DNA from: an uncultured Pleomorphomonas sp.
Lineage (GTDB): Bacteria; Pseudomonadota; Alphaproteobacteria; Rhizobiales; Pleomorphomonadaceae
Length of the DNA: 49,120 nucleotides
Assembly: GCA_937868725.1 (NCBI GenBank)
Contig: CALMMQ010000024.1
Location: 1 to 49,120 of the forward strand
Direction of reading: 5' to 3'
Shown: positions 9,879 through 38,629 of the stretch, in pieces
Layout: the number at the start of each line of letters is the position of its first letter
How positions within the stretch are numbered: the stretch's first letter is position 1
Program-made: the position numbers and the translations under genes
The notes under the pieces: model-generated
What the model was told of the DNA's origin: nothing
Database searches by the model: none
What the model saw: only the letters and a program-made list of their open reading frames with translations

Positions 9879-11642
9879 TCAGCGCTTGTATTCCGGCAGC
9901 ACCTGATAGCTGGTGTGCAGCAGTTCGTGCGCCTTGTGGCCACCGATCTCGCCCAGGAACTCGGCGTAGAGTTCCTTGATGTAGGGGTTGTGGTGCGAGC
10001 AGCGCCACAGACCGGCCTGGTCTTCCTGGTACAACCCGGCGGCGCGCTTGGTGCGCAGCTCGTTGGTGGCGCCGTAGGGCTGACCGCCGCCGCCGACGCA
10101 GCCGCCGGCGCAGGCCATCACTTCGACGAAGTGGTAGGGCGGCTCCTCGCCGGCATCCCGGGCGGCGCGGATCTTGTCGATCACCTGCTCGACGTTGGCG
10201 AGGCCGTGAGCGACGGCGACGCGAACCTCCTTGCCGGCAACAACGATCTTGCCTTCCTTGACGCCCTCGAGACCACGGGTCATCTCGAAATCGACGCGCG
10301 GCGCGTCCTGGCCGGTGACGTAGTAGTGGGCGGTGCGCAGCGCCGCCTCCATGACGCCGCCAGTGGCGCCGAAGATGGTGCCGGCGCCGGTGTAGGCGCC
10401 GAGCAGATGGTCGGGCTGCTCTTCCGGCACGGAGACGAAGTCGATGCCCGACTGCTTGATCATGCGGGCGAATTCGCGCGTCGTCAGCGACACGTCGACG
10501 TCCTGGTAGCCCGACGAGCTCATCTCCTTGGAACGGATGATCTCCGACTTCTTGGCCGTGCACGGCATGATCGACACGACGAAGATCTTGGCCGGATCGA
10601 GACCGAGCTTGTCGGCGTAGTAGGTCTTGGCCAGCACGCCGACCATCTCGTGCGGCGACTTGCAGCTCGAGAAGTGGTTGATCATGTCGCCGTGGAACTT
10701 CTCCATGAAGTCGACCCAGCCGGGACAGCACGAAGTGATGAGCGGCAGAGCGCCGGTGCCCTCGAGCAGGCGGTGCTTGAACTCGCTCGCCTCCTCCATG
10801 ATGGTCAGGTCGGCGCCGAAGTTGGTGTCGAACACCGCCTTGAAGCCCATGCGGCGCAGGGCGGCGTAGACCTTGCCGGTGAGGTTGGCACCGAGCGGGA
10901 AGCCGAAGGCCTCGCCGATGGCGACGCGCACGGCCGGCGCGATCTGCACCACGCAGTAGACAGCCGGGTCCTGCAGCTTGTCCCAGACGGACACGGTCTC
11001 GTCATACTCGACGATGGCGCCGGTCGGGCAGTGGGCCGAGCACTGGCCACAGCGCACGCAGGGCGAATCGGCCAGCGGAATGTCGCCGGCGGCGGCGATG
11101 CGCGTCTTGAAGCCGCGGTTGAGGAAGCTCAGCGCCCAGACGTTCTGATGCTGCTGGCAGACGGTGATGCAGCGGCCGCACAGGATGCACTTGCGCGGGT
11201 CGAGCACGATGGAGCGCGTCGAGGTATCAAGCGGCAGGTCGGGGACGATGTTCTCGAGCCCGTAGCCGCTGATGCCGAAGTCGGCAGCCAGCGACTGCAG
11301 TTCGCAGTTCTGGTTGCGCAGACAGGTCAGGCATTCGTTGGGATGACGCGACAGCGTCAGCTCCATGATGCCGCGGCGAACCTGGACGATCTCCGGCGTT
11401 TCCGTCAGGATGTCCATGCCCTCCTCGATGGGCGTGCAGCACGAGCGCAGCATGCGGCCGGTGTTCTGCACCTTGACGATGCAGATGCCGCAGGCGGCCG
11501 TCGCCTCGAGATCCGGATGCTTGCACAGCGTCGGGATCTTGACGTGAACCTTGCGCGCCGCATCCAGGATCGTCGTTCCCGGAGCCACCTCGACGGGCGC
11601 ACCGTTGATAATCGCGTGTATCATTTCAGTCATGGCAACCAC
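9879..11642 (-). CDS. hydA: [FeFe] hydrogenase catalytic subunit (HydA/HndD type)
   Basis: 587 residues with the modular layout of trimeric NAD(P)-linked [FeFe] hydrogenases. An N-terminal [2Fe-2S] domain has C40, C51, C54 and C68/69. A His-Cys3 cluster follows (H100, C104, C107, C113), then two [4Fe-4S] motifs (CILCGRC 152-158; CVRCGQC 195-201). The H domain has all three H-cluster motifs: TSCCPGW (303-309), MPCTAKKSE (359-367) and EVMACAGGCVGGGGQP (507-522), so ligands C306, C361, C511 and C515 and proton-relay C305 are present. A small-subunit-like tail ends the protein. It should interconvert H+ and H2 in the cytoplasm with HydB/HydC. The start is GTG 11642 or ATG 11633; neither has a strong ribosome site. 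Maturases HydEFG are not in the window. Confidence 0.93.
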   Translation of the reverse strand: MVAMTEMIHAIINGAPVEVAPGTTILDAARKVHVKIPTLCKHPDLEATAACGICIVKVQNTGRMLRSCCTPIEEGMDILTETPEIVQVRRGIMELTLSRHPNECLTCLRNQNCELQSLAADFGISGYGLENIVPDLPLDTSTRSIVLDPRKCILCGRCITVCQQHQNVWALSFLNRGFKTRIAAAGDIPLADSPCVRCGQCSAHCPTGAIVEYDETVSVWDKLQDPAVYCVVQIAPAVRVAIGEAFGFPLGANLTGKVYAALRRMGFKAVFDTNFGADLTIMEEASEFKHRLLEGTGALPLITSCCPGWVDFMEKFHGDMINHFSSCKSPHEMVGVLAKTYYADKLGLDPAKIFVVSIMPCTAKKSEIIRSKEMSSSGYQDVDVSLTTREFARMIKQSGIDFVSVPEEQPDHLLGAYTGAGTIFGATGGVMEAALRTAHYYVTGQDAPRVDFEMTRGLEGVKEGKIVVAGKEVRVAVAHGLANVEQVIDKIRAARDAGEEPPYHFVEVMACAGGCVGGGGQPYGATNELRTKRAAGLYQEDQAGLWRCSHHNPYIKELYAEFLGEIGGHKAHELLHTSYQVLPEYKR

Positions 11643-11659
11643 TTTTCGATCCCGGAAGG

Positions 11660-13315
11660 TCAGGCTTGCTCGGTTTCCGTCTTCTTCAGGCGTTCGGTGA
11701 ACTCCGATTCGAAGTGCTTCAACGCCGAGAGAACGGGGTTGGGCGCCGTCTGTCCGAGCGCGCAGAGCGAACCTCGCTGCATCGCCTGAGCGATCTTGCG
11801 GATGGACTTGATGTCTTCGGCCGTGCCTTCACCGGCGACGATCTTGTCGAGCAGGTGCAGCATCTGCGTGCCGCCGATGCGGCAGGGCGCGCACTTGCCG
11901 CAGGACTCGTCGACGCAGAAGTCGAGGTAGAAGCGCGACAGTTCGACGACGCTGTCGTGATCGTCGATGACGATCAGACCGCCCGATCCCATCATCGAGC
12001 CCAGCTGCTGCAGGTGCTCGTAGGAGATGGGGGTGTCGAACTGGCTGGCCGGAATCATGCCGCCGGACGGGCCGCCGGTCTGCACCGCCTTGACCTGCCG
12101 TTCGGTGCCGGTGCCGCCGCCGATGGTTTCGACCAGCTCGCGGATGGTGATGCCCATCGGCACTTCGACGAGGCCGTTGTGGGCGATCTTGCCGGTGAGG
12201 GCGAACACCTTGGTGCCCTTGGACTTCTCCGTACCCTTGGCAGCGAACCAGGCGGCGCCGTTGTGCAGGATGCGCGGCACGTTGGCCAGCGTCTCGACGT
12301 TGTTGACGCAGCTCGGCTTGTCCCACAGGCCCTTGACCGAGGGGAACGGCGGCCGCGGCCGCGGCGTGCCACGCCGGCCTTCCACCGAGGCGATCAGCGC
12401 CGTTTCCTCACCGCAGACGAAAGCACCGGCGCCGAGGCGGACGTCGAAGTCGAAGTTCCAGCCGGAGTTGAGGATGTTGCGGCCGACGAGGCCGGCAACG
12501 CGCGCCTGGCGGATCGCTTTCTCGACGCGCTCGACGGCGAGCGGATACTCGGCGCGGATGTAGAACACACCGTTGGTGGCGTTCATGGCGCGGGCGGCGA
12601 TCATCATGCCTTCGATGACGGCATGCGGGTCGCCTTCCAGCACCGACCGGTCCATGAAGGCGCCGGGGTCACCCTCGTCGCCGTTGCAGATGACATACTT
12701 GACGTCGGACTCGACCCGGCGGGCGAAGTCCCACTTGAGACCGGTGGGATAGCCGGCGCCGCCGCGACCGCGCAGGCCTGAGGCGAGCATTTCCTGGCAG
12801 ATTTCCTCGGCCGTCATGGTCAGGGCCTTGCGCAGACCCTGATAGCCGCCGTGCATCAGGTATTCCGGCAGCTTCTCCGGGTCGGCGTGGCCGTTGTTGG
12901 ACAGGACGACGCGTTCCTGCTTGGCGAAGAACGGCGCCGCCAGATCGACGGTGTGGGCGCCGAGCACGCCGACCGGGTCGGCCACCGGCTCGCCGTTGGC
13001 CAGCGGGGCGACCACTTCTTCGACGAGGTGGGTGGCCAGATCCGGCGTCATTTCCGAACACAGAATGTCGTCGTGCGCCTTCGAGGTCAGGCGGACCAGC
13101 GGGCCCTTCGAGCACAGGCCCATGCAGCCCGTGCCGCCGACCTGCACCTTGGCGTCGAGCCCCTTGGCCTTGAGATCGGCCTTGAGGCGGGCGGCGACGT
13201 CGGCCGCTCCCGACGAATGGCAACCCGTGCTCGAACAGCAGACGAGGCGCGCTTCCAGGGCCTGCTGCTTGGCAAGCTCGGCGGCGGCTTTCACTTCAAG
13301 CTCTTCCGGCTTCAT
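11660..13315 (-). CDS. hydB: NADH-binding flavoprotein subunit of the hydrogenase (HydB/HndC, NuoF-like)
   Basis: 551 residues. The N-terminus is a thioredoxin-like [2Fe-2S] domain (C27, C32, C64, C68). Next is a NuoF-like FMN/NADH domain (GRGGAGYPTGLKW 183-195; NGDEGDPGAF 211-220; GAGAFVCGEETAL). An SLBB region follows, then the N3-type [4Fe-4S] site (C472, C475, C478, C518). The protein ends at 551, about 30 residues after C518, so the C-terminal two-cluster ferredoxin domain found in Thermotoga-type HydB is missing. It passes electrons between NAD(H) and HydA. AGGA lies before the ATG. hydA starts 17 bp downstream. Confidence 0.92.
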   Translation of the reverse strand: MKPEELEVKAAAELAKQQALEARLVCCSSTGCHSSGAADVAARLKADLKAKGLDAKVQVGGTGCMGLCSKGPLVRLTSKAHDDILCSEMTPDLATHLVEEVVAPLANGEPVADPVGVLGAHTVDLAAPFFAKQERVVLSNNGHADPEKLPEYLMHGGYQGLRKALTMTAEEICQEMLASGLRGRGGAGYPTGLKWDFARRVESDVKYVICNGDEGDPGAFMDRSVLEGDPHAVIEGMMIAARAMNATNGVFYIRAEYPLAVERVEKAIRQARVAGLVGRNILNSGWNFDFDVRLGAGAFVCGEETALIASVEGRRGTPRPRPPFPSVKGLWDKPSCVNNVETLANVPRILHNGAAWFAAKGTEKSKGTKVFALTGKIAHNGLVEVPMGITIRELVETIGGGTGTERQVKAVQTGGPSGGMIPASQFDTPISYEHLQQLGSMMGSGGLIVIDDHDSVVELSRFYLDFCVDESCGKCAPCRIGGTQMLHLLDKIVAGEGTAEDIKSIRKIAQAMQRGSLCALGQTAPNPVLSALKHFESEFTERLKKTETEQA

Positions 13316-13357
13316 GACAGTCCTACTTGGTTCTAGTGATGTTCAGGTGGCGCCGGT

Positions 13358-13909
13358 TCAGTCGGCCGCAGCGGCATCGTCGTCGGGACGGGAAGCCACG
13401 GGCTGATCGACCTTGACGTGTTCGAGCACGGCGTGGCTGTCGGAGGTGTCGAGCTTGCCGTAGACCTTGCCGTTGACCGAAGCGAGCGGTGCCAGGCCGC
13501 AGCAGCCGAGGCAGCGCACGCCCTGCAGGTGGTACTCGCCGTCCGGCGTGCTTTCACCGGCCTTGATACCGAGTTCGTCCTCGAGCCCCTGCAGCAGCTT
13601 CGGCGAACCCTTGATGTGGCAGGCCGTGCCGGTGCAGACGGAAACGATGTACTTGCCCGGGCTTTCCAGCTTGAAATAGTTGTAGAAGGTCAGCACCTCG
13701 TAGATGTTGGCCAGCGGCACGCCCATCTCGCGCCCGAGCTTCATGGCCTGATCGCGCGGCACGTAGCCGAGCCGGCCCTGCAGTTCGTGCAACGCCATGA
13801 TCAGGCTGCCGCGCTTCTTCTTCCACTTCTGCGCCAGAACGACGATCTCATCCTGAGGAACGTCCTCGACATCGGTGTCGATCTCGTCGGCTGTGGTATT
13901 TTCGGCCAT
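13358..13909 (-). CDS. hydC: Hydrogenase [2Fe-2S] subunit (HydC/HndA, NuoE-like)
   Basis: 183 residues with the NuoE/24-kDa thioredoxin-like fold. The helical part (residues 22-80) has LQGRLGYVPRDQA and VLTFYNYF. The cluster ligands are C92 and C97 (VCTGTAC) with C133 and C137 (VRCLGCC). Acidic, low-complexity tails flank the domain at both ends (DEIDTDVEDVPQDE; DDDAAAAD). It is the smallest subunit of the HydABC complex and the first gene of the operon, 42 bp ahead of hydB. A formate dehydrogenase gamma subunit has the same fold, but the HydA neighbour decides the assignment. Confidence 0.9.
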   Translation of the reverse strand: MAENTTADEIDTDVEDVPQDEIVVLAQKWKKKRGSLIMALHELQGRLGYVPRDQAMKLGREMGVPLANIYEVLTFYNYFKLESPGKYIVSVCTGTACHIKGSPKLLQGLEDELGIKAGESTPDGEYHLQGVRCLGCCGLAPLASVNGKVYGKLDTSDSHAVLEHVKVDQPVASRPDDDAAAAD

Positions 13910-14386: not shown

Positions 14387-14848
14387 TCAGGCGATGGCGT
14401 ACTTGCTGTCGACGGTCTCGATGGCCTTGACGTTGCCGCCCGACGGGCCGTCGGGGTCGAACTTGCCGGTGAGATCGAGGAAGGTGTCGGCGATCAGCTT
14501 GGCCACTTCCGTACCGATCACCCGAGCGCCCATGGTGATGATCTGGGCGTCGTTGGACAGCGCCGCCCGCTGGGCCGAATAAGCATCGTGCGTCAGGGCG
14601 GCGCGGATGCCGCGCACCTTGTTGGCGCTGATGCAGACGCCGATGCCGGTGCCGCAGATCAGGATGGCGCGGTCGTAGGTGCCGGCCATGACGCCGGATG
14701 CCACGCGGTCGGCCATGTTGGCATAGAACGCATCGGCGACGTTGTTGGTGCGCGACACCTCGAACACGTCAAAGCGCGACTTCAGATGTTCCGCCAGCAC
14801 GTGCGCCAGCTTTTCGCCGGCGCTGTCGCCGGCTACCGCCACCTTCAT
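14387..14848 (-). CDS. rpiB: RpiB-like sugar-phosphate isomerase, copy A (erythrulose-4-P isomerase candidate)
   Basis: 153 residues of the RpiB/LacAB isomerase family. Asp8 (GDSAG), the active-site Cys65 in [15 protein letters not shown] and the RGIRAAL anion-binding region are present. Ribose-5-P isomerase B is the family name. In tetritol pathways the same family (EryI, DerI) isomerises D-erythrulose-4-P to D-erythrose-4-P, which suits the kinase and EryH genes nearby. The start at 14848 is chosen from alignment with copy B; the frame to 15004 has no support. The gene is identical to copy B (37940-38413) over 457 bp and differs only in its last codons (ends YAIA). It is divergent from the transketolase gene. 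Confidence 0.88.
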
Positions 14849-15020
14849 GATGTTCCATCCTCCCCGACCGGCCCGCGCCAAGGATGTTACATACTGAACA
14901 TCCCCGCCAAATTCTCGCGTTTCGGTGCGCATTATCACATATGGCCGCTCGAACCAGGGCAAAAGCGGCCGCTCACGGTGCTTTCTGTAACATATGCGCG
15001 ACAAAAATCAAGGTAATGAT

Positions 15021-15058
15021 GTTAGTTTGATAACTTGTGTTGATATTTTTGTGATTTT
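15021..15058. promoter_or_regulatory. 38-bp element upstream of rpiB-A and tkt
   Basis: An AT-rich stretch between divergent rpiB-A and tkt contains an imperfect direct repeat, TTGATAACTTGTG (15027-15039) and TTGATATTTTTGTGA (15040-15054), with a 13-14 bp period. The same 38 bp recurs with 6 mismatches upstream of rpiB copy B (38592-38629), at almost the same distance from the gene. Conservation where the rest of the spacer has diverged suggests an operator, perhaps for the DeoR regulators of this window. Confidence 0.5.
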
Positions 15059-15099
15059 GGCCTAAGACCGCCTGAACCCGAACAGGAAGGAGACCCCCA

Positions 15100-17133
15100 A
15101 TGATCACTGCCGACTGGATTCAGCAACAAGCCAAGGCCGCGCCGGCCGACTTCCCGATGGCCAACTGCATCCGGGCCCTCGCCATCGACGCCGTCGAAGC
15201 CGCCAATTCCGGGCATCCGGGCGCCCCGCTCGGCATGGCCGACGCCGCCGCCGTGCTGTTCTCCCGCCATCTCAAGTTCGACGCCGCCAACCCCGACTGG
15301 CCCGATCGCGACCGCTTCGTGCTGTCCAACGGCCACGCCTCGATGCTGCTCTACGCCCTGCTCTATCTCACCGGCTATCAGGACATGACCATCGACGAGA
15401 TCAAGGCGTTCCGGCAGTGGGGCTCGAAGGCCGCCGGCCACCCCGAGTACGGGCACGCCAAGGGCATCGAGACGACGACCGGTCCGCTCGGACAGGGCAT
15501 CGCCGGCGCCGTCGGCATGGCCATGGCCGAACGCCGTCTCGCCGACGAGTTCGGCAGCGACGTCATCGACCACTACACCTACGTGTTCTGCGGCGACGGC
15601 TGCCTGGAGGAAGGCATCAGCCAGGAAGCCATTTCGCTGGCCGGCCACCTCGGACTGGGCAAGCTGATCGTCCTCTACGATGACAACGGCATCACCATCG
15701 ACGGCCGCACCACCGTCAGCTTCTCCGAGAACGTCCCGGCCCGCTTCACCGCCTGCCGCTGGCACGTGCAATCGTGCAACGGCCACGATCCGGCCGCCGT
15801 CGACGCCGCCATCGCCGCCGCCCGGGCCGCCACCGACCAGCCGTCGCTGATCGCGCTGCGCACCGTCATCGGCTTCGGCTCGCCCAACAAGGCGGGACGG
15901 GAGTCCTCGCACGGCGCCCCGCTCGGCACCGACGAGGCGGCCGCCACCAAGACGGCGCTCGGCTGGACCGCCGCACCGTTCGAAATCCCCGCCGACCTCT
16001 TGGAGCGCTGGCGCGCCATCGGCCGGCGCGGCGCCAGCGAACGCGCCGCCTGGCTTGAGCGTCTGGCGGCCAAGCCCGCCGATCAGCGGGCCGAATTCGA
16101 CCGCCGCATGGCCGGCACGCTGCCGGCCGGCTACGCCGCCGCCGTCGAAACGCTGAAGCGCAGCCTGTTCGACAAGCCGCAGAAGGTGGCGACGCGCCGG
16201 GCCAGTCAGATCGCCCTTGAGGCGATCACCGCCGCCGTGCCGGAGATGATCGGCGGTTCGGCCGACCTCACCGGCTCCAACCTCACCCGCGTCAAGGCCG
16301 TCGACAGCCAGTTCACCCGCGCCAGCTCCGGCCGCTACGTCGGCTACGGCGTGCGCGAGTTCGCCATGGGCGCGGCCATGAACGGCATGGCCGTGCACGG
16401 CGGCATCCTGCCCTACGGCGGCACGTTCCTGGTGTTCTCCGACTACGTGCGCGGCGCCATCCGCCTGTCGGCGCTGATGGGAGTCGGCACCATCTACGTC
16501 ATGACGCACGATTCCATCGGCCTCGGCGAAGACGGTCCGACGCACCAGCCGGTCGAGCACATGGCCACCTTGCGCGCGCTGCCGCGCCTGATGGTGATGC
16601 GGCCGGCCGACGTCGTCGAAACGGTCGAGTGCTGGGACGTGGCGGTGCGCAGCCGCACGCGGCCGTCGCTGCTGGCCCTGTCGCGCCAGGCGGTGCCGCA
16701 GCTGCGCGACGGCGCCGGCGAAACGATCAGCGCCAACCGCTCTGAGCTCGGCGCCTACGTCATCCGCAGCTTCGGCAGCGGCGCGCGCGACGTGACGCTT
16801 TTGGCCACCGGCACGGAAGTGGCGCTGGCCATCGAAGCGGCGGCGGCGCTCAACGCCGACGGGCTCAACGTCGCCGTGGTGTCGATGCCGTGCTGGGAAC
16901 TGTTCGAGGCCCAGTCCAAGGCCTACCGCCAGGAGGTGCTGGGCACGGCGCCGCGCGTGGCGGTCGAAGCCGCCGGCAAGTTCGGCTGGACGCGCTACGT
17001 CGACAGCGAGGACGATGTCATCGGTCTCGACGACTTCGGCGCCTCGGCGCCGGCCGAGCGGCTCTATGCCGCCTTCGGCATCACCAAGGAGGCGATCGTC
17101 GCCAAGGCCAAGGCGCTTGCCGCCAGCAACTGA
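15100..17133 (+). CDS. tkt: Transketolase
   Basis: 677 residues, the usual transketolase length. The thiamine-diphosphate motif runs from GDG (165-167) to the Asn of LYDDNG (196). Other landmarks are [14 protein letters not shown] (37-50), [27 protein letters not shown], the pyrimidine-domain segment [22 protein letters not shown] and the C-terminal domain ending AKALAASN. It transfers C2 units among pentose, tetrose and triose phosphates. Beside tetrulose-phosphate isomerases it would draw erythrose-4-phosphate into the pentose phosphate pathway. GGAAGGAG lies 8 nt before the ATG. A terminator follows at 17261. Confidence 0.96.
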
Positions 17134-17498: not shown

Positions 17499-18305
17499 GT
17501 GCAATACGACGAAGACGATATCCGCAACGTGAGAGCTTCCGCCGGCCCGACCGGGCGACGCAAAGCGCTTCTGGACTATCTTCTGCCGGTCGGTTCGGCG
17601 CAGGTCGACGAGCTCGCCGACCATTTCAGCGTCAGCCGCATGACGGTGCATCGCGACCTCAAGCTTCTGGAAGAACAGGGCATCGTCCGCCGCGTCCACG
17701 GCGGCGTCACCGTGCGCTCGTCGAGTCTCGCCGACAGTACCATCCTCTACCGCTCGCGCCTTGCCGACGCCGAAAAGGACGCCCTGGCCCGCGCCGCCGT
17801 CGAGCTGATCGAGCCGGGACAGGCGATCATCCTCGACGATTCCACCACCGTCGGACACCTGGCAGCCCAGATCGTCACCTGCAAGCCGCTCACCGTCATC
17901 ACCAGCAGCCTGTCGATCATCGACACGCTGAAGGATGCCCACGGTATCGAGACGATCAGCCTCGGCGGCCACTACAATCCGCGCTTCAACGCCTTCTTCG
18001 GCTATTTCTGCGAACAGGCCGTCGGCTCGCTCCGGGCCAACATCCTGTTCATGTCGACTTCGACCGTGCTCGGCCTCACCGCCTACCACCAGCAAGAGGA
18101 AGTGGTGAAGACCAAGCGGGCGCTGATGGAAGCGGCCGACCGCAAGGTGCTGCTGATCGACAGCACCAAGTTTGGCAAGACGTCGCTGATCAAGCTCGCC
18201 TCGCTCACCGAGTTCGATCAGGTGATCACCGACAGCGGCATCTCGGCGGCCGAGGCCGACGCCCTGCGCAAGGACGGCGTCAATCTCACCGTGGTCGAGA
18301 CCTGA
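17499..18305 (+). CDS. DeoR-family transcriptional regulator 1
   Basis: 268 residues. The N-terminal HTH (about 20-70) contains RRKALLDYLLPVGSAQVDELADHF, SRMTVHRDLKLLEEQGIVRRVHGG. The sugar-phosphate sensor domain (about 85-265) has AIILDDSTTVGHLA, TISLGGHYNPRFNAFFG and KRALMEAADRKVLLIDSTKFG, as in DeoR/GlpR regulators that bind a phosphorylated sugar. The start is GTG 17499, placed by alignment with the paralogue at 32749 and a GAGAGTGGGG upstream. It is very similar to that second DeoR protein. Between tkt and the eryH-dhaLK operon it probably represses the local tetrulose genes, using an erythrulose-phosphate as signal; this is inferred. Confidence 0.88.
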   Translation: MQYDEDDIRNVRASAGPTGRRKALLDYLLPVGSAQVDELADHFSVSRMTVHRDLKLLEEQGIVRRVHGGVTVRSSSLADSTILYRSRLADAEKDALARAAVELIEPGQAIILDDSTTVGHLAAQIVTCKPLTVITSSLSIIDTLKDAHGIETISLGGHYNPRFNAFFGYFCEQAVGSLRANILFMSTSTVLGLTAYHQQEEVVKTKRALMEAADRKVLLIDSTKFGKTSLIKLASLTEFDQVITDSGISAAEADALRKDGVNLTVVET

Positions 18306-18319
18306 AGGCGCTTGCGCTT

Positions 18320-18426
18320 AGAGCGCTTTCCGACCTGACTGAATCGTCAGGTCGATAAGAAACCGCTCCAGAGTCAAAGGCTTGAGCAGCCGCTTATCGA
18401 TCAGGTTGGTGCAACCTGATCGGCGG
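18320..18426 (+). repeat. Double stem-loop intergenic repeat, copy 1
   Basis: About 107 bp with two palindromes: CGACCTGA-N8-TCAGGTCG (18331-18354) and GATCAGGTTG-GTG-CAACCTGATC (18399-18421). It starts with AGAGCGCTTTC. Two more copies lie in opposite orientation at 26054-26162 and 34900-35006. Here it fills the convergent gap between deoR1 and eryH, at both 3' ends, where it could act as a two-way terminator or mRNA stabiliser. It resembles the palindromic intergenic repeats common in Rhizobiales genomes. Confidence 0.75.
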
Positions 18427-18503
18427 ATGCTCTAGGTGGCAAAAGACACGCCGCCGGCCGGGCCCTCAACCCGACCGGCGGCGATGATCCTTGCCTGATC
18501 GGC

Positions 18504-19265
18504 TCAGGCCCGCGCCCGGCCGATGGCGGCGATCAGCCCGGCGAAGCCCGTGGCGTCCCAGGCGGCCCGACCGATGAACAGACCATCGACCGTGGGTTCG
18601 TTGGCCAGATCGACGGCGTTGCCGGCGTTGACCGAACCGCCATAGAGCACCGGCACCGCCGGCGCCCCGAGTTCGGCCAGCGCCGTGTGCAGGGCGGCAT
18701 GGACGGCGCGCACCTCGTCGGGCCGCGCCGGCACGCCAGCCTCGCCGATGGCCCAAATGGGCTCGTAGGCGACGAGACAGCGGCCGACGTCCTGCGGCGT
18801 CAGTCCGCCGAAGGCCAGCTTGACCTGGCGGACCACCGCTTCGGCCGAGGTGCCGGCTGCCCGTTCCTCGGCGCTGTCGCCGACGCAGAGCAGCGGCCGC
18901 ATGCCGTGGCGCAGCGCCGCCTTGACCTTGAGATTGAGCGCCTCGTCGGTTTCCCCAAACATCTGCCGCCGCTCGGAATGGCCGAGCTCGACCAGATCGA
19001 TGCGGAACTCTTCGAGCATGGCCGGCGAGATTTCGCCGGTGAAGGCGCCAGCCTCGGCCCAGTGCATGTTCTGGGCACCGAGGAGCAGCGGCGCCGTGCC
19101 GATCGCCTCGCGGGCAGCGGCCAGCGCCGTAAACGGCGGAATGATGAAAACGGCCAGCGTGTCGGCCTTGGCCGGCAGTTGCGCCTTGAGCGTGTCGATG
19201 TAGCGGCGCGCCTCGGCCACCGTCTTGTTCATCTTCCAGCCGGTGCCGATCCAGAAAGTAGCCAC
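18504..19265 (-). CDS. eryH: Triosephosphate-isomerase-like L-erythrulose-1-phosphate isomerase
   Basis: 253 residues of the TIM-barrel isomerase family with all catalytic residues: K11 (GTGWKMNK), H96 (ELGHSERR) and E168 (AYEPIWAIG), plus the phosphate loop YGGSVN. The overall pattern (FWIGTGWKMNKT, VIPPFTA-like, GAQNMHWAEAGAFTGEISP) is that of Brucella EryH (LerI), which converts L-erythrulose-1-P to D-erythrulose-4-P, rather than housekeeping TpiA. The start is GTG 19265 behind GGAGG. It is the last gene of a dhaK-dhaL-eryH operon. Ordinary triosephosphate isomerase activity remains possible. Confidence 0.88.
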   Translation of the reverse strand: MATFWIGTGWKMNKTVAEARRYIDTLKAQLPAKADTLAVFIIPPFTALAAAREAIGTAPLLLGAQNMHWAEAGAFTGEISPAMLEEFRIDLVELGHSERRQMFGETDEALNLKVKAALRHGMRPLLCVGDSAEERAAGTSAEAVVRQVKLAFGGLTPQDVGRCLVAYEPIWAIGEAGVPARPDEVRAVHAALHTALAELGAPAVPVLYGGSVNAGNAVDLANEPTVDGLFIGRAAWDATGFAGLIAAIGRARA

Positions 19266-19432
19266 ACCTGCCTCCGCAAGTCCTCGGCGCGCGGCGGCCG
19301 CGTCGGAGCGAACCGACCGGCCGGCCCGAGCCGTTGTCGCACCCCAGCCGCCGGACAACACGCCGGCAGCGCGTCGTCCGTCCGGACAGGTCGGGTGCCC
19401 CGGCGGACGGCGGCCGCCGCCCGCGTTCATGG

Positions 19433-20065
19433 TCAGGCGGCGATATAGTCCCGCATGGCCTCGAGGATCAACGACACGGACACGGCGCCCGGATCGGCAT
19501 GACCAAGCGAGCGCTCGCCAAGTGTCCGCGCCTTGCCGGTGGTGGCGATCATGTCCTTGGTGGCCTCGACGCCGGCCTTGGCCGCATCGGTGGCAGCCCG
19601 CAGCGTCTCGACCAGCCCCCGGGCGGCCGTCGCCTCGGCAGCGGCCACGGCCGGCGCCACGGCGTCGATCATCGTCTTCTGACCCGGCTTGGCGCCACCG
19701 CGCTTTTCCACGGCATCGAGCCCCTGGGCGAGGAAGCCGGCAAAGCCGGTGGCGTCCAGCTCGGCGCGGCCGTCGAAGGCGGCGCTACCGGCCCGGAACA
19801 GCGTGCCGAACACGGCGCCGGCGGCACCGCCGGTCTTGGCCATGATGGCCGTGCCGGCGTCCTTGAACACCTTGGCCACCGACTGCGGGTCGATGCCGGC
19901 CATGGTCTCGGCCACGGCGGTAAAGCCGCGCCGCATGCCGATGCCGTGGTCGCCGTCGCCGATGGCCTGGTCGACCTCGGTCAGCATGTCGATGTTGGCC
20001 AGCATGTGGCGGGCAACGGCGGTCAGCATGTCACGCGCTTCGGCCGGGGTAAGGGTATCGTGCAT
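19433..20065 (-). CDS. dhaL: DhaL-type kinase subunit 1 (erythrulose/dihydroxyacetone kinase, ATP-binding)
   Basis: 210 residues of the all-helical DhaL domain. The nucleotide/Mg site is IGDGDHGIGMRRG (35-47). TGGAAGAVFGTLFRAG and GGAKPGQKTMIDAVAPA follow, all typical of the ATP-dependent L subunit. With DhaK encoded 3 bp upstream it forms a ketose kinase. In tetritol pathways such pairs phosphorylate L- or D-erythrulose; dihydroxyacetone is the classical substrate. The EryH gene downstream suggests that L-erythrulose-1-P is the product of this pair, but this is inference. Confidence 0.87.
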   Translation of the reverse strand: MHDTLTPAEARDMLTAVARHMLANIDMLTEVDQAIGDGDHGIGMRRGFTAVAETMAGIDPQSVAKVFKDAGTAIMAKTGGAAGAVFGTLFRAGSAAFDGRAELDATGFAGFLAQGLDAVEKRGGAKPGQKTMIDAVAPAVAAAEATAARGLVETLRAATDAAKAGVEATKDMIATTGKARTLGERSLGHADPGAVSVSLILEAMRDYIAA

Positions 20066-20068
20066 CGG

Positions 20069-21073
20069 TCAGGCCCTCGAATAGGCAAAGGAACGGGCAG
20101 GCATGTCGAGATAGCGCTTCAGTTCGTCGTCGAGCTTCATCAGCGTGATCGACATGCCGGCCATCTCCTGGCAGGTCAGGTAGGAACCGGCGTCGGTGCG
20201 GTGGACAGTGATGCCGCGCGCCTTGAGGATCTGGTCGACGCGACGACCGACGATCAACAGTTCCATCAGGGTGGTGGCGCCAAGGTTGTTGAGCAGCACC
20301 GCCACCTCGTCGCCGGCCTTGAACGGCAGATCGGCCAGAATGCGGTCGACCATCTCCTCGGCGATGGCGTCGGCGTCGGTCATCTTGCGACGGGCGATGC
20401 CCGGCTCGCCGTGGGCGCCCATGCCGATCTCGAGTTCGTCTTCCGGCAGCTCGAAGGTGCGCTCGCCCGTTTCGGGGATCGAGCCGGCAGCCAGGGCCAC
20501 GCCCATCGAGCGGGTGTTGTCGCGCGCCTTGACGGTGACACGGTAGACCTCGTCGAGGTCCTTGAGCTCGCTGGCGGCGGCGCCGGCCACCTTGATGACG
20601 AAGAAGTCGCCGGCAATGCCGCGCCGATCGGTGATGCGATCGAGTGGCGCGGCGGCGACATCGTCCCAAACGCGCACGGTGCGCGTGACAATGCCGGCTT
20701 CCTCGGCCAGTTCGGCGGCGATGTCGAAGTTCATGTTGTCGCCGGCGTAGTTGCCATAGACCATCAGCACGCCGCGACCGCGATGCACCGCTTCGAGCGT
20801 ATCGAGAACGAGATCGGGCGTCGGAGCGGCGAACACTTCGCCGCAGGGGGCGCCGTCGGCGAGGTTATGGCCGACGAAGCCGGGGAACATCGGCTCGTGG
20901 CCACTGCCGCCGCCGATCAGCAGCGCCACCTTGTCGTCGGCGATCTTGTCGCGAACAACGGCGTTGCGGTCGCCGAGACGCAGCAGTTCGCCACCGCTGG
21001 CCGCCACCAGCCCGTCGAGGAGCTCGGTGACGACGTTGGCTGGATTGTTGAGCAGTTTCTTCGGCTTGCCCAT
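20069..21073 (-). CDS. dhaK: DhaK-type kinase subunit 1 (substrate-binding)
   Basis: 334 residues of the DhaK family. The substrate loop GGGSGHEP (54-61), GNYAGDNMNF (108-116, with D112) and the active-site His221 in GMGAHGEPG, which binds the ketone covalently as a hemiaminal, are all present. The start at 21073 is preceded by GGGAGG; an upstream in-frame extension to 21172 lacks a ribosome site. It partners DhaL. It differs widely from the second DhaK of the window (for example AAPLDRITDRRG versus SAPKTELGKRRG), so the two pairs likely have different substrates or stereochemistry. Confidence 0.88.
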   Translation of the reverse strand: MGKPKKLLNNPANVVTELLDGLVAASGGELLRLGDRNAVVRDKIADDKVALLIGGGSGHEPMFPGFVGHNLADGAPCGEVFAAPTPDLVLDTLEAVHRGRGVLMVYGNYAGDNMNFDIAAELAEEAGIVTRTVRVWDDVAAAPLDRITDRRGIAGDFFVIKVAGAAASELKDLDEVYRVTVKARDNTRSMGVALAAGSIPETGERTFELPEDELEIGMGAHGEPGIARRKMTDADAIAEEMVDRILADLPFKAGDEVAVLLNNLGATTLMELLIVGRRVDQILKARGITVHRTDAGSYLTCQEMAGMSITLMKLDDELKRYLDMPARSFAYSRA

Positions 21074-21139
21074 GCCGGTTCCTCCCATTTCATGGTCTTG
21101 TATCCGGATCGTCTCACGGGAAACGCCGGTCAGGCCTGT

Positions 21140-21215
21140 GACAATAGGGGCACTTGCCGGCGTTCGTGTCAATCAAATTTTTCATGTTTGTGTTATTATG
21201 TGATCTATATTGTGT
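21140..21215 (-). promoter_or_regulatory. Promoter region of dhaK-dhaL-eryH
   Basis: A perfect TTGACA lies on the minus strand at 21172-21167, with a weak CCTATT-like -10 about 18 nt on. Just upstream (21181-21213) is an AT-rich stretch with TTCATGTTTG, ATGTGATCTA and a repeated TGTG. TTCATGTTT and ATGTGATCTA also occur upstream of the ABC operon near 30720-30790. The gene-free gap continues to 21622 and includes the leader of the plus-strand dehydrogenase; no further gene is seen in it. Confidence 0.4.
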
Positions 21216-22896: not shown

Positions 22897-22931
22897 GCCC
22901 GACCCGGACCCCGCCGGGTCGGGCTTTTTTT
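22897..22931 (+). terminator. Intrinsic terminator after the polyol dehydrogenase
   Basis: GCCCGACCCGG (22897-22907) and CCGGGTCGGGC (22914-22924) form a perfect 11-bp stem with a 6-nt loop, followed by seven T (22925-22931) on the plus strand. The last T bases are part of the stop codon region of the convergent SorC-type gene. The 240 bp between the dehydrogenase stop and this hairpin hold no convincing gene. Confidence 0.88.
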
Positions 22932-23925: not shown

Positions 23926-24042
23926 GTTCGGCGGCTCTTCGCGATTGCAGGCCCGGCCCCCACCGGCACCAACGGCCGGGGTGGGCGGAACGGGTATTAG
24001 CACAGCGCCGCCGGCCGATCAGCCCCGCCGAGGGGCGAAGGC

Positions 24043-26020: not shown

Positions 26021-26041
26021 GCGCCCCGCCAGGCGGGGCGC
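26021..26041. other. GC stem-loop in the 3' region of the ABC operon
   Basis: GCGCCCCGCC-A-GGCGGGGCGC is a near-perfect palindrome of 10-bp arms around one base. In hairpin form the innermost pairs would open to make a loop. It lies between the terminator and repeat copy 2. Confidence 0.5.
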
Positions 26042-26053
26042 CCGCGAGAGCAG

Positions 26054-26162
26054 CCGCCGATCAGGTTGCACCAACCTGATCGATAAGCGGCGGCTCAACT
26101 TATTGAATCTGTAGCGTTTTCTTGTCGACCTGATGAGTCCATCAGGTCGGAAAGCGCTCTAG
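26054..26162 (-). repeat. Double stem-loop intergenic repeat, copy 2
   Basis: Reverse-orientation copy of the element at 18320-18426, closely matching it. The palindromes are GATCAGGTTG-CAC-CAACCTGATC (26059-26081) and CGACCTGA-N8-TCAGGTCG (26126-26149), ending AAAGCGCTCTAG. It begins about 20 nt past the stop of the binding-protein gene, inside the 3' untranslated part of that message. The paired arms are kept while the loop changes, which suggests selection for RNA or DNA structure. Confidence 0.75.
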
Positions 26163-32748: not shown

Positions 32749-33567
32749 GTGGATATCGAACACGAACGACGTCGAAGCATGAAGCCATCGTCCGGCCCCG
32801 ATGGGCGGCGCAAGGCGCTTCTCGATTATCTGCTGCCCGTCGGATCCGCCCAGGTCGACGAGCTGGCCAGCCACTTTGGCGTCAGCCGGATGACCGTGCA
32901 CAGGGATCTCAAGGTGCTCGAGGAACAGGGCATCGTCCGCCGCGTCCACGGCGGCGTCACCGTCCATTCGTCGAGTCTGGTGGAAAGCACCATTCTCTAC
33001 CGCTCGCGTCTGGCCGACGCCGAGAAGGAAGCCATTGCCCGCGCCGCCGTCGAGATGGTCGAACCGGGCCAGGCGATCATCCTCGACGATTCCACCACCG
33101 TGTCGCGCATGGCGCCGTTGATCGTCGGCTGCAAGCCGCTCACCGTGATCACCAACAGCCTCACGGTCATCGATACGCTGAAGGAAGCCCATGGCATCGA
33201 GACCATTAGTCTCGGCGGCCATTACAATTCGCGCTTCAACGCCTTCTTCGGCTATCTGTGCGAGCAGAGCGTGTCCAAACTCAGAGCCAACACGCTGTTC
33301 ATGTCGACGTCGACCATCCTCGGCGCCATCGCCTACCATCAGCAGGAAGAGGTGGTGAAGACCAAGCGGGCGCTGATGGAGGCCGTCGACAGGCGCATCC
33401 TGCTGGTCGACAGTTCCAAGTTCGGCATCACGGCGCTGATCCGGCTGGCCCACCTCAACGAATTCGACGTGGTGATCACCGACAGCGGTCTGCCGGAGGG
33501 CGACAGAGACACGCTGCGCAAGAGCGGCGTCAGCCTGCGCGTCGTCAACTCCAACCCGGCGGGATGA
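32749..33567 (+). CDS. DeoR-family transcriptional regulator 2
   Basis: 272 residues, the clear paralogue of the regulator at 17499-18305. The HTH (RRKALLDYLLPVGSAQVDELASHFGVSRMTVHRDLK) is nearly identical and the sensor domain matches throughout (AIILDDSTTVSRMA, TISLGGHYNSRFNAFFGYLCEQ, KRALMEAVDRRILLVDSSKFG). The genes share a 41-bp identical stretch over the recognition-helix end (17673-17713 and 32923-32963). The start is GTG behind GAAGGA. It probably controls tal, the ABC operon and the second kinase set. Near-identical HTHs imply overlapping operators for the two regulators. Confidence 0.88.
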   Translation: MDIEHERRRSMKPSSGPDGRRKALLDYLLPVGSAQVDELASHFGVSRMTVHRDLKVLEEQGIVRRVHGGVTVHSSSLVESTILYRSRLADAEKEAIARAAVEMVEPGQAIILDDSTTVSRMAPLIVGCKPLTVITNSLTVIDTLKEAHGIETISLGGHYNSRFNAFFGYLCEQSVSKLRANTLFMSTSTILGAIAYHQQEEVVKTKRALMEAVDRRILLVDSSKFGITALIRLAHLNEFDVVITDSGLPEGDRDTLRKSGVSLRVVNSNPAG

Positions 33568-33762: not shown

Positions 33763-34878
33763 TCAAGGCACAAGCATGATCTTGAGGGACTTGTCGCCCT
33801 TCTTCATCATCTTGAAGCCGTCGTCATAGTCCTTGAGCGGCAGCGTGTGGGTGACGACGCCCTCGGTCGGCAGGCGGCCGTCGGCGATCGCCTCGATGAC
33901 GAAGGGATAGACGTACGGGCTGAGATGGGCGCCGAGCACGTCGAGCTCCTTGCGGTCGGAGATGATCGACCAATCGCAGGTGACGTCGTGGCTGAAAACG
34001 CTGAACTCGACGAAGCGGCCGAGCTTGCGGATCATCTTCAGACCCTGCAGCACGCTCGAGGGATGGCCGGTGGCTTCGATGTAGACATCACAGCCATAGC
34101 CGTCGGTCAGATCCTTGACGATCTTGTCGACATCTTCCTTGAACGGGTTGATGACCATGTCGGCGCCGAACTTCTTGGCCAGCTCCAGACGATCATCCTT
34201 GCCGTCGAGCACGATGAGCTTCTTGGGATTCTTGAGGCGAAGCGCGCCGACCATGCCGAGGCCGAGCGTGCCGGCGCCGGAGAGCACCACGACGTCATCG
34301 AACTGCACCGAGCCGCGATTGACGGCGTGGGCCGAGCAGGCATACGGCTCGATCAGCACCGCCTTCTCGAGCGGAATGTCGTTGGGGACCTTGTGGGTGC
34401 GCGATTCCTTGGGGAAGCGCATGTAGGCGGCCATGGCGCCGTTGACGTTGGTCTGGAAGCCGTAGACGTCGTGCTTCTCGCACATCCAGTATTCGCCGCG
34501 CTGGCAGAAGCGGCAGTGGCCGCACGGCACGATCTGTTCGGAGATCAGACGTTCACCGAGCTTGTACTTGCCTTCGGCGACGACGTTTTCGCCGAGTTCG
34601 ACGGCGATGCCGACGAATTCATGGCCGGGGATCATCGGCGCCTTGATGTAGGCCGGTTGGTCCTTGTCGCCCCAGAACGACGGCGCGCCGTCGTAGCTCT
34701 TGATGTCACCGGCGCAGATGCCGCAGCCTTCGACCTTGATGATGATCTCGTCCGGGCCGGCGCGCGGCGTGTCGACGGTGGTGAAGCGGAAATCGCCGGG
34801 CGCATAGGCGACGACGGCCTCCATGGTCTTCGGCAGTTCGCCGAGCGAGATCGAATGAGCGTGCTTTACGATGTTCAT
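33763..34878 (-). CDS. eltD: Erythritol/L-threitol dehydrogenase (EltD-type zinc MDR)
   Basis: 371 residues of the zinc alcohol dehydrogenase family. Catalytic zinc ligands are C55 (CGICAGD) and H86/E87 (PGHEFVG). The structural zinc site is complete (C119, C122, C125, C133). The Rossmann loop is VVLSGAGTLGLGMV. Distinctive stretches (FWGDKDQPAY, ERLISEQIVPCGHCRFCQRGEYWMC, KLGRFVEFSVFSHDVTCDWSIISDRKELDVLGAHLSPY) match Mycobacterium smegmatis EltD, which oxidises erythritol and L-threitol to erythrulose with NAD+. AGGGAGGG precedes the ATG. It follows dhaL2 after repeat copy 3. Confidence 0.87.
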   Translation of the reverse strand: MNIVKHAHSISLGELPKTMEAVVAYAPGDFRFTTVDTPRAGPDEIIIKVEGCGICAGDIKSYDGAPSFWGDKDQPAYIKAPMIPGHEFVGIAVELGENVVAEGKYKLGERLISEQIVPCGHCRFCQRGEYWMCEKHDVYGFQTNVNGAMAAYMRFPKESRTHKVPNDIPLEKAVLIEPYACSAHAVNRGSVQFDDVVVLSGAGTLGLGMVGALRLKNPKKLIVLDGKDDRLELAKKFGADMVINPFKEDVDKIVKDLTDGYGCDVYIEATGHPSSVLQGLKMIRKLGRFVEFSVFSHDVTCDWSIISDRKELDVLGAHLSPYVYPFVIEAIADGRLPTEGVVTHTLPLKDYDDGFKMMKKGDKSLKIMLVP

Positions 34879-34899
34879 GATTACCCTCCCTTAGTGCAC

Positions 34900-35006
34900 C
34901 CGCCGATCAGGCTGGAACGACCTGATCGATTTGCGGCTGCTCAAGCCTTTGATGCTGGAGCGAATTCTTATCGGCCGGACTGAACCGTCAGATCGGAAAG
35001 CGCTCT
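34900..35006 (-). repeat. Double stem-loop intergenic repeat, copy 3
   Basis: The most diverged of the three copies: GATCAGGCTGGAACGACCTGATC (34905-34927) and a weaker second stem ending GATCGGAAAGCGCTCT. It lies in the 351-bp gap between the dhaL2 stop and the eltD start, on the 3' side of dhaL2. In this place it could separate expression of the kinase genes and eltD. The rest of the gap has no gene. Confidence 0.7.
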
Positions 35007-35229
35007 CGGAACCATAAGCAGGACGCCACCGCCGGACGCGACAAGGTGACGCCTGGAGCCTCCGCCGCCCGAGCCTCATCGGCCCGTCCGGTCAGCGGCT
35101 ACGCAAGTCCTTGAATTGCCAGCCTTTCGGTGTCGCTCAGGGTCTAGCATCCTGTCGCCGAAGGCTTTGGCGTGATTCACGGCCGCGCCGCGACGCGGCC
35201 GTGACTGCAGAGATCGTGGCACCGGTCGC

Positions 35230-35868
35230 TCAGGCGATCCTGGCGGCAATGGAGCCGGCCATGGTCTCGAGGATGACGCAGCACGACGCCGAGCCGGCAT
35301 CGAGCACGCCGCGCGAACGCTCGCCGAGACGGCTGGCCCGACCCACCCGGGCAATCATGCCGATGGTGGAATCGCGACCGGCGCGGGCAGCGGCGGTCAT
35401 GTCGTCGAGAGCGGCCTGATACGGCTTGCCGGCGGCGACGGCGGCCTCGAAGGCCTCGACGGCCGGCACCAGCGTGTCGAGCAGCGTCTTGTCACCCGGC
35501 TTGGCGCCGCCGATGTCGAGCACGCCGTCGAGACCGGCGCGGATCATCTTGGCGAAGGCCTTGGCATCGAGCACCGCCACGCCGTCGAGGGCGTCGGCCA
35601 TCTCGTTGAAGAAGGTGCCGTAGAGCGGGCCCATGGAACCGCCGATACCGGCCATCAGCGTGTTGCCGAGGATGCCGAAGCTTTCCTTGAGGCCCGGCGT
35701 CGGGCTGCCGAGCGCCTGGGCGCAGAGGTTGAAACCCTTGGCCATGTTGACGCCATGGTCGCCGTCGCCGATGGCGCCGTCGATGTCGCTGAGATGGTCG
35801 CGCTCGGCCACGATCGCCTTGACGAGGTCCGTCACCACGAAGCCGGCTTCATTCACGGGAAGTGCCAT
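35230..35868 (-). CDS. dhaL: DhaL-type kinase subunit 2
   Basis: 212 residues with the DhaL landmarks IGDGDHGVNMAKGF (34-47), MAGIGGSMGPLYGTFF and GGAKPGDKTLLDTLVPA, ending in LGERSRGVLDAGSASC. This is the ATP-binding half of the second ketose kinase. It lies 12 bp after dhaK2. Sequence differences from DhaL1 (for example the GGSMGPLYG loop in place of GGAAGAVFG) suggest an old duplication or separate origin. D- or L-erythrulose is the probable substrate given the eltD gene downstream. Confidence 0.87.
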   Translation of the reverse strand: MALPVNEAGFVVTDLVKAIVAERDHLSDIDGAIGDGDHGVNMAKGFNLCAQALGSPTPGLKESFGILGNTLMAGIGGSMGPLYGTFFNEMADALDGVAVLDAKAFAKMIRAGLDGVLDIGGAKPGDKTLLDTLVPAVEAFEAAVAAGKPYQAALDDMTAAARAGRDSTIGMIARVGRASRLGERSRGVLDAGSASCCVILETMAGSIAARIA

Positions 35869-35880
35869 GGTGTCGTCTCC

Positions 35881-36876
35881 TCACTTGACCAGGCCGATGG
35901 AACGGGCGGGACGGGCCAGCAGCCGGTCGAGCTCGTCATCGAGACGCATGACGGTGAGCGTGGCGCCCATCATCTCGAGGGAGGTGAAGTAGTTGCCGAC
36001 GAAGTTGTGACGGATCTCGATGTTCTTCTGACCAAGCACGTCGGCGAGGCGGTCATAGAGAATGTAGAGTTCCATGACCGGCGTCGCGCCGAGGCCGGAC
36101 AGCAGCACGGCCACCTTGTCGCCAGCGGCGAACGGCAGGTCGGGCAGCACGTAGTCGAGCATCATGTCGGCCATTTCGGCCGCCGGACGGGTCTTCATCA
36201 CCGACACGCCAGGCTCGCCATGATGGCCGATGCCGACTTCCATCTCGCCATCCTTGATCATGAAGTTGGGATGACCAACCGCGACCAGCGTGCACGGCGA
36301 CAGACCAATGCCGATGGAGCGGGTGTTGTCGATGGCCTTCTGCGCGGCGGCGATGACTTCGTCGAGCGTGCCACCCTCGGCGGCGCGGGCGGCGCCGACC
36401 TTCCACATCAGGATTTCGCCGGCGACGCCGCGGCGCTTGCCGAGTTCGGTCTTGGGGGCCGAGGCGACGTCATCGTTGGCAACGACGGTCTTGACGGTCA
36501 GGCCTTCCTTGGCCGCCATCTTGATCGCCATCTTCACGTTCATGTTGTCGCCAGCGTAGTTGCCGTAGAGGCAGGCCACGCCCTGACCGCCGTCGCAGGC
36601 CTTGAAGGCTTCGTAGAACGCCTGGGCGGTGGGCGACGAGAAGATTTCGCCGATGGCCACGGCGTCGACCATGTCCTCGCCGACGTAGCCGAGGAACGCC
36701 GGCTCATGGCCCGAGCCGCCACCGGTGACCACGCCGACCTTGCCGGCCTTGGGCGCCGACTTGACCTTGATGACACGCGGATTGCTGGTCGCCGACACCA
36801 GATCCTGATGGGCCTTGAGATAGCCCCTGGTAGCATCCTCGACCATCAAATCGGGATCGTTGAAAATTCTGTTCAT
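35881..36876 (-). CDS. dhaK: DhaK-type kinase subunit 2
   Basis: 331 residues. The substrate loop is GGGSGHEP (52-59), followed by GNYAGDNMN (105-113) and the active-site His219 in GIGHHGEPG. Compared with DhaK1 the protein carries a different N-terminus (MNRIFNDPDLMVEDATRGYLKAHQDLV), closer to the form seen in erythrulose-kinase-type DhaK proteins. The start at 36876 follows GGGTGGAG; the frame further upstream to 37035 has no support. It forms a kinase with DhaL2. Confidence 0.88.
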   Translation of the reverse strand: MNRIFNDPDLMVEDATRGYLKAHQDLVSATSNPRVIKVKSAPKAGKVGVVTGGGSGHEPAFLGYVGEDMVDAVAIGEIFSSPTAQAFYEAFKACDGGQGVACLYGNYAGDNMNVKMAIKMAAKEGLTVKTVVANDDVASAPKTELGKRRGVAGEILMWKVGAARAAEGGTLDEVIAAAQKAIDNTRSIGIGLSPCTLVAVGHPNFMIKDGEMEVGIGHHGEPGVSVMKTRPAAEMADMMLDYVLPDLPFAAGDKVAVLLSGLGATPVMELYILYDRLADVLGQKNIEIRHNFVGNYFTSLEMMGATLTVMRLDDELDRLLARPARSIGLVK

Positions 36877-37139
36877 CGGTTGTCTCCACCCTAAGCCAAT
36901 TGTGCTTTTCGAGCGTCGCCGACCTGCGGCGAAGCGCGTTCCGCCGGCTGTCACCAGGTTCCTCGACAATGGCGACAGCGATCTTGCGGATGCCGGACCG
37001 ACCTGCGACGGACCGCCGCGTGGGGCGCGGGTCAAGCACCCTATCCTCCTCTGCCATGACCTCCATGACCGGGAAGGACGTTGATCCGGACGCTACATCC
37101 CATTCGACCGAATGTCAACATGGGTGAGCGTTTGTTCGC

Positions 37140-37911: not shown

Positions 37912-37939
37912 CATTGGTCACCGTCGCTGACCGGCGCGG

Positions 37940-38413
37940 CTATTTCGCCAGGCACTTGCCGGCGTACTTGCTGTCGACGGTCTCGATGGCCTTGACGTTG
38001 CCGCCCGACGGGCCGTCGGGGTCGAACTTGCCGGTGAGATCGAGGAAGGTGTCGGCGATCAGCTTGGCCACTTCCGTACCGATCACCCGAGCGCCCATGG
38101 TGATGATCTGGGCGTCGTTGGACAGCGCCGCCCGCTGGGCCGAATAAGCATCGTGCGTCAGGGCGGCGCGGATGCCGCGCACCTTGTTGGCGCTGATGCA
38201 GACGCCGATGCCGGTGCCGCAGATCAGGATGGCGCGGTCGTAGGTGCCGGCCATGACGCCGGATGCCACGCGGTCGGCCATGTTGGCATAGAACGCATCG
38301 GCGACGTTGTTGGTGCGCGACACCTCGAACACGTCAAAGCGCGACTTCAGATGTTCCGCCAGCACGTGCGCCAGCTTTTCGCCGGCGCTGTCGCCGGCTA
38401 CCGCCACCTTCAT
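37940..38413 (-). CDS. rpiB: RpiB-like sugar-phosphate isomerase, copy B
   Basis: 157 residues. It is identical to copy A (14387-14848) from residue 1 to the final YA, after which it ends GKCLAK instead of IA. Asp8 and Cys65 (LICGTGIG) are therefore the same. The start at 38413 has a good AAAGGAA ribosome site, which copy A lacks. It is the likely D-erythrulose-4-P isomerase of the second module. DNA identity covers 37961-38417, including silent positions, so the copies were homogenised or duplicated very recently. Confidence 0.88.
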
Positions 38414-38591
38414 GATGCGTTCCTTTCCGCAATCATCACCCGTCTTGCCACCCGTGATCGTCACGGTCTTGCCGCAGCCTCCCGAGCGGGGACCTGGGGT
38501 AGCAGGCGAAGGATTGTCTCACCCACCTGTGCACTTACCCCGTCGTTGCTACGAAACATAACACCGTTCGCGTCAAAATCAACCCAATTGT

Positions 38592-38629
38592 GTTGGTTTG
38601 ATAACTTGGGCTGATATTATTGTGACATT
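38592..38629. promoter_or_regulatory. 38-bp element upstream of rpiB copy B
   Basis: This matches 15021-15058 at 32 of 38 positions (shared core GTTTGATAACTTG and GATATT-TTGTGA). It is followed after a similar distance by AACCCGAACGGG, close to the AACCCGAACAGG of the tkt leader. In copy A this sequence precedes transketolase; here no gene follows on the plus strand up to 38757. The 344-bp gap 38414-38757 therefore looks like a copy of the rpiB-tkt spacer without tkt. Confidence 0.5.

Follow-up and report, generated by a model that had tools for sequence, protein, structure and literature searches.

Two genes for an RpiB-family sugar-phosphate isomerase, rpiB1 and rpiB2, were found in one contig of a draft Pleomorphomonas genome with open reading frames (ORFs) that matched at 457 of 457 bases and with flanking sequences that did not match. 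The reading we prefer, with a probability of roughly two in three, is that these are two older rpiB loci whose ORF has been homogenized by ectopic gene conversion. From the comparisons set out below we infer that conversion was the mechanism and acted recently, that the duplication is old, and that selection may have favored two equal isomerases. The window, meaning the whole stretch of DNA analyzed, was an entire contig of 49,120 bases from a 4.13-Mb draft genome of 128 contigs with 4.56% contamination.

The repeat and its gene neighborhood

Both genes lie on the minus strand. rpiB1 (14387..14848; ATG at 14848, stop at 14387-14389) is located between nuoE and tkt and encodes 153 amino acids ending in KYAIA, and rpiB2 (37940..38413; ATG at 38413, stop at 37940-37942) is located upstream of dhaK2 and encodes 157 amino acids ending in KYAGKCLAK, with residues 1-151 common to the two products. 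Comparison across the whole contig confirmed the claim of the initial annotation that 14396-14852 and 37961-38417, both on the minus strand, are identical at every base. Each copy of the repeat extends from 4 nt 5' of the ATG through codon 151, which includes the KYA of the tail. The repeat is maximal, in that the first base beyond either end mismatches on both sides, and the flanks were thus rightly described as diverging at once, with tails IA versus GKCLAK. The runner-up pair of same-strand repeats in the window was just 81% identical over 744 bp, so the 457-bp identity lies far beyond chance. In the whole draft genome, a DNA search found two full rpiB copies together with two partial matches of 192 and 85 bases (68 to 74% identical), and the same pair was recovered by searching at the protein level (E <= 1e-30). 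Approximately 113 synonymous sites within the ORF were all unchanged between rpiB1 and rpiB2, which suggests that the last homogenization was recent. Purifying selection on codons was rejected as the cause of the identity on account of these same sites, and copying via mRNA was rejected because the ends of the repeat would not be expected of a transcript.

Membership of the RpiB family was indicated by scores above the cut-offs of PRK05571 (154.4 versus 135) and TIGR00689 (107.9 versus 88.3; NCBIfam) and by a match of residues 1-150 to PDB 5ifz, "Ribose 5-phosphate isomerase" (1.9e-65). The rpiB1 product resembles EryI, the D-erythrulose-4-phosphate isomerase of the RpiB family, in that the EryI model NF051858 was its best NCBIfam match by E-value, and it differs in that the score over the full model, 229.7 bits, lies below the curated cut-off of 240. 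The repeat thus carries the ORF of an rpiB/eryI-type isomerase, with D-erythrulose-4-phosphate as a possible substrate.

Downstream of rpiB1 lies a hydA-nuoF-nuoE-like [FeFe]-hydrogenase block (9879..13909, minus strand), and rpiB has the same neighbors in seven of the eight genus relatives that carry it. Linkage of an [FeFe]-hydrogenase with NuoF/NuoE-like subunits to the sugar cluster was thus observed here and in seven relatives. From rpiB1, the order of genes is tkt (transketolase, TIGR00232 over cut-off; 15100..17133, plus strand), DeoR1 (DeoR-family regulator, NCBIfam AgaR-type models under cut-off; 17523..18305, plus strand), and set A, comprising a Tpi-like isomerase and the DhaKL-type kinase genes dhaL1 and dhaK1 (18504..21172, minus strand). 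These are followed by a Zn-dependent dehydrogenase, a regulator of SorC/DeoR type (22930-24003; DeoR and LsrR models under cut-off, SorC being our own label), and a chemoreceptor. Thereafter come a sugar ABC transporter, accompanied by a DUF2291 lipoprotein, and transaldolase (tal), then DeoR2 (DeoR-family regulator; 32773..33567, plus strand; Pfam DeoRC and HTH_DeoR, matched on 32731-33567) and set B, comprising the second Zn-dependent dehydrogenase adh2, dhaL2, and dhaK2 (33763..37035, minus strand). A gap of 904 bp separates dhaK2 from rpiB2, and a CbiM-type cobalt/nickel transporter region lies beyond rpiB2. Nothing in the window reached the Rfam gathering score. Separately, an intergenic repeat of 115 to 122 bp was observed at 18319-18440, 26040-26161, and 34892-35006, with the copies 77 to 88% alike within the window; at least 46 matches to it, including short and overlapping ones, were located genome-wide.

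Leaders and promoter-like elements

The initial annotation also held that the 5' leaders differ up to a 38-bp element. The leaders do differ, and the element was located inside a pair of similar 51-bp segments ∼160 nt upstream of each ATG, at 15004..15054, between rpiB1 and tkt, and 38575..38625, upstream of rpiB2 (both unstranded). These segments are 42/51 identical and probably represent a promoter or operator. The nine differences among 51 positions, compared with none among the 457 of the repeat, were highly significant (Fisher, 5e-10).

The leaders between element and repeat (14853..15003 for rpiB1 and 38418..38574 for rpiB2, both minus strand) were aligned with the element excluded, and each alignment was judged against shuffled sequences. 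The rpiB2 leader was similar, ribosome-binding region included, to the rpiB leaders of six related species (G001, G003, G006, G008, G009, and G013): shuffles scored as well in 0 of 1,000 cases for five of them and 1 of 1,000 for the sixth. It was also weakly similar to the leaders of G004 (9/300 shuffles) and of the outgroup locus L036 (7/300). The rpiB1 leader, by comparison, gave chance-like results against the six relatives (108 to 646 of 1,000 shuffles as good) and was at chance against the rpiB2 leader (594/1,000). The distance from element to ATG was 156 nt at locus 1, 162 nt at locus 2, and 168 to 169 nt in the relatives, and with this similar spacing locus 2 resembles a complete rpiB gene rather than a randomly dropped ORF. 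When 21 loci of relatives were scanned, the core of the element turned up in 6, invariably at rpiB/tkt, and was absent from G004 and G011.

On the tkt side, the relationship was reversed. Locus 1 showed a relationship to the relatives, with 2 to 83 of 1,000 shuffles as good, whereas locus 2 showed none (281 to 936 of 1,000). The positional counterpart of the relatives' rpiB is therefore locus 1 when judged by the tkt side and locus 2 when judged by the rpiB leader. For the 3' flank of rpiB2, comparison with the relatives gave no clear similarity, the best result being 8/300 shuffles (G011). A permissive tblastn search with 46 window ORFs detected no leftover of tkt, nuoE, or any other gene of the cluster next to rpiB2. 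The best matches there, short and scattered, to an ABC ATPase in 37036-37939 (E 0.010, 23% over 53 amino acids) and to DeoR2 in 38418-38760 (E 0.002, 34% over 47 amino acids), were read as noise, and tkt gave no match below E 0.27. That rpiB2 formerly faced tkt is not claimed, given the lack of a tkt remnant there and a tkt-side comparison between the two loci in which 169 of 1,000 shuffles were as good.

These data bear directly on a very recent duplication, in which the ORF would have been copied lately, its flanks marking the insertion site, or would have been copied with its old leader, the leader of rpiB1 then being replaced. A young copy would account for the complete identity with no extra events, all eight genus relatives with the gene have it in single copy, and the match of the locus 1 tkt side to the relatives allows for loss of the old leader there by replacement. 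However, locus 2 has an rpiB-type leader with a similar ribosome-binding region, spacing, and element, and a random insertion would be unlikely to have one end 4 nt 5' of the ATG and the other close to the final conserved codon, and to come to lie behind such a leader. If the leader had been copied as well, the element should equal the ORF in identity, yet 9/51 positions differ. Recent duplication is accordingly considered unlikely. The initial annotation had named gene conversion and a very recent copy as joint candidates; the resemblance of leader 2, and not leader 1, to those of the six relatives, together with the diverged element, strengthened the former and told against the latter. Its dismissal of an old tandem duplication was half right, in that the homogenization appears recent and the duplication itself looks old.

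Some of the same comparisons count against conversion between two older loci. Against the intergenic region between rpiB and tkt in the six relatives, positions 15004-15067, containing element 1, were 81 to 89% identical, and positions 38552-38631, containing element 2, were 81 to 83% identical. Element 1 is thus as close or closer to the relatives than element 2, which, taken with the tkt side, makes it possible that the leader of locus 1 was replaced.

Copy number, gene order, and divergence among relatives

Among 13 other genomes of the genus, searched at E <= 1e-30, rpiB was present as one copy in eight, absent from five, and in no case present twice, so that the two-copy state was confined to the source genome (1/14). 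Since no other genome of the genus has two copies for comparison, the estimate of the age of the duplication draws on the diverged leaders and elements alone. In G010, one of the five, 60 bp matched the beginning of rpiB, and one contig starts inside hydA. Of 397 genomes in the order, 32 had a match at E <= 1e-58, a threshold at which weaker second copies would be missed, and two had two matches: the source genome and G317, from another family. The two isomerase copies of G317 lie on separate contigs (L136 and L137) and are 77% identical in nucleotide sequence, which indicates that two copies need not stay identical. In a plasmid collection, 23 records matched the 1,001-bp query and none covered 80% of it.

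In the six relatives, the cluster runs DeoR1 - set A - transporter - tal - DeoR2 - set B - hydA - nuoF - nuoE - rpiB / tkt, some of them with a second transporter ahead of tal. The order in G004, hydA - nuoF - nuoE - rpiB / tkt - DeoR1 - set A - transporter - tal - set B, matches that of the window, except that rpiB2 is lacking and no DeoR2 intervenes between tal and adh2; a DeoR1-like gene was observed on the other side of its dhaK2 (L124:8509-9285). As a separate observation, gene order appeared circularly permuted between lineages (9879-37035 versus L113-L132), the hydrogenase-rpiB/tkt segment preceding set A in the window and in G004 and following set B in the six. Relative to dhaK2, rpiB2 occupies the side on which the six relatives have their single rpiB, with no hydrogenase genes intervening. 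In G011, rpiB lies 844 bp from a distant dhaK2-like gene (63% amino acid identity). Upstream of dhaK2 in nine relatives, no remnant of rpiB or of the element was detected at E <= 0.01, and seven of the nine gave a match to the dhaK2 promoter region itself.

Gene order and the state of the draft are relevant to an assembly effect, in which two loci would be real and one consensus would have been written for both, or flanks would have been mispaired through the repeat. The genome is a draft with the fragmentation and contamination given above, and an exact repeat of 457 bp exceeds typical short reads. The junction set B - rpiB2 - cbiM had no counterpart seen in the relatives; dhaK2 adjoins hydA in the six and in G010, and cbiM and dhaK2 are on different contigs in G001, G009, and G010. 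Against this, each copy has unique flanks on both sides within a single contig, the order shared with G004 supports the pairing hydA-nuoF-nuoE-rpiB1-tkt-DeoR1-set A, and collapse would be unexpected for copies diverged by 20%; near-identical copies, however, could have been merged by the assembler. An assembly effect was judged quite improbable.

The rpiB ORF was 100% identical within the genome, compared with no more than 82.1% nucleotide identity to any of the 13 relatives and outgroups aligned (81.3% to G004 and 77.8 to 82.1% to the six relatives). The paralogues are therefore more alike than positional orthologues, and the homogenized tract has sharp ends with older divergence in its flanks, both of which are features of ectopic gene conversion. 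The regulators DeoR1 and DeoR2 of the same cluster, used as a control pair, were 79.6% identical in nucleotide sequence. DeoR2 clustered with the orthologues in its own position (97/100); DeoR1 fell outside that clade with no firm placement. Taken together, the leader, element, DeoR-pair, and G317 results favor two old loci with a homogenized ORF. The ORF trees did not decide between affinity to the six relatives and affinity to G004 and singled out neither locus as donor. Similarly, the start context ATC-ATG-AAG is common to G004, and L035, L036, and G011 start at the same ATG, so that it does not tell the direction. Two trees of other genes conflicted: that of hydA/nuoF/nuoE/tkt, for which G011, represented by tkt only, served as root, placed the source genome with the six relatives (100/99), whereas in that of rpoB the source genome branched outside G004, G002, and the six (85/99).

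Horizontal transfer would have brought rpiB2 and its leader from a relative, with rpiB1 then overwriting it, or the reverse, through recombination. Such an origin would fit the resemblance of leader 2 to the leaders found in six further species of the genus. On the other hand, the surrounding sets A and B are at ordinary orthologue distances, and no mobile-element gene was recognized among the neighboring ORFs examined, two of which have no Pfam family. Moreover, gene conversion would still be required, as only the origin of locus 2 differs, and transfer is given a very slender chance.

Probable ectopic gene conversion and comparison with known systems

In the preferred reading, ectopic gene conversion, two rpiB/eryI-type loci would be long-standing, one between nuoE and tkt and the other upstream of dhaK2, with leaders, promoter elements, and C-terminal tails that drifted apart. 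Homologous, nonreciprocal recombination between the copies, in one or repeated events, would have kept or recently made the ORFs identical, with the conversion tract stopping on each side where homology ends. Recombination between copies diverged to ∼80% would be hindered by mismatch repair, and prior divergence of this degree would count against the conversion reading. Sets A and B appear to be parallel gene sets of tetrose/polyol type that possibly share one isomerase. In tetritol catabolism, each could presumably supply D-erythrulose-4-phosphate to an RpiB/EryI-type isomerase, set A through its dehydrogenase, DhaKL kinase, and Tpi-like isomerase and set B through its dehydrogenase and DhaKL kinase, and two equal isomerases may have been selected for this reason. 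The product, erythrose-4-phosphate, would be taken up by transketolase and transaldolase.

Recombination between the two same-strand copies could also remove or duplicate the 23.5 kb between them, which is mechanically feasible; no such event was observed. Direct repeats of this kind would make the catabolic block of 23.5 kb easy to lose or amplify. It is improbable, and at most a speculation, that the identical ORFs act as a lasting portal for recombination through which the block (tkt, both kinase sets, transporter, and tal) is reversibly amplified and lost, with the exchanges keeping the ORFs identical. More generally, the pair warns against dating a duplication by how identical the paralogous ORFs are. 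It offers a natural case of homogenization limited to the ORF in a bacterial metabolic enzyme, with diverged leaders, an internal control in the unconverted DeoR1/DeoR2 pair, and single-copy relatives.

The process, in which copies overwrite each other by recombination, is already known in bacteria, and no new mechanism is needed; rRNA operons are also known for homogenization by gene conversion. Among the matches listed, the papers on Pleomorphomonas gene duplication, on erythritol/rpiB/EryI (including PMC3599248 and PMC10190533), on D-erythrulose-4-phosphate/D-threitol, and on concerted evolution with gene conversion did not contain the present case. In Sinorhizobium fredii, a bacterium of the same order, the eryR-tpiB-rpiB suboperon is described as duplicated (PMC3599248), which likewise provides a second rpiB-carrying module of tetrose catabolism. 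Its two tpiB genes are distantly related and possible xenologs (PMC3599248), unlike the identical rpiB ORFs found here, and the main text of that paper mentions no gene conversion.

Concerted evolution of prokaryotic protein genes has been described for amoA/amoB, haoA, psbD, and others (PMC6053082). As in those cases, often genes of one pathway, the rpiB paralogues are closer within the genome than to orthologues; those cases recur over long times and in many species, whereas the rpiB pair was present in 1 of 14 genomes of the genus. In Salmonella, processive conversion, which heterology blocks, keeps the two near-identical protein genes tufA and tufB alike and, in the model presented, aborts at gene ends (PMC5485169). 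Blocking by heterology would fit tract ends at the last homologous bases, and abortion at gene ends makes repeated partial events likelier than a single sweep of the whole ORF. The rpiB pair shares with tufA/tufB the near identity of two protein genes and differs in that it encodes a catabolic enzyme, that its identity is complete and ends at the edges of the ORF, and that its conversion is deduced from sequence rather than measured. It is a good but ordinary example of a known process.
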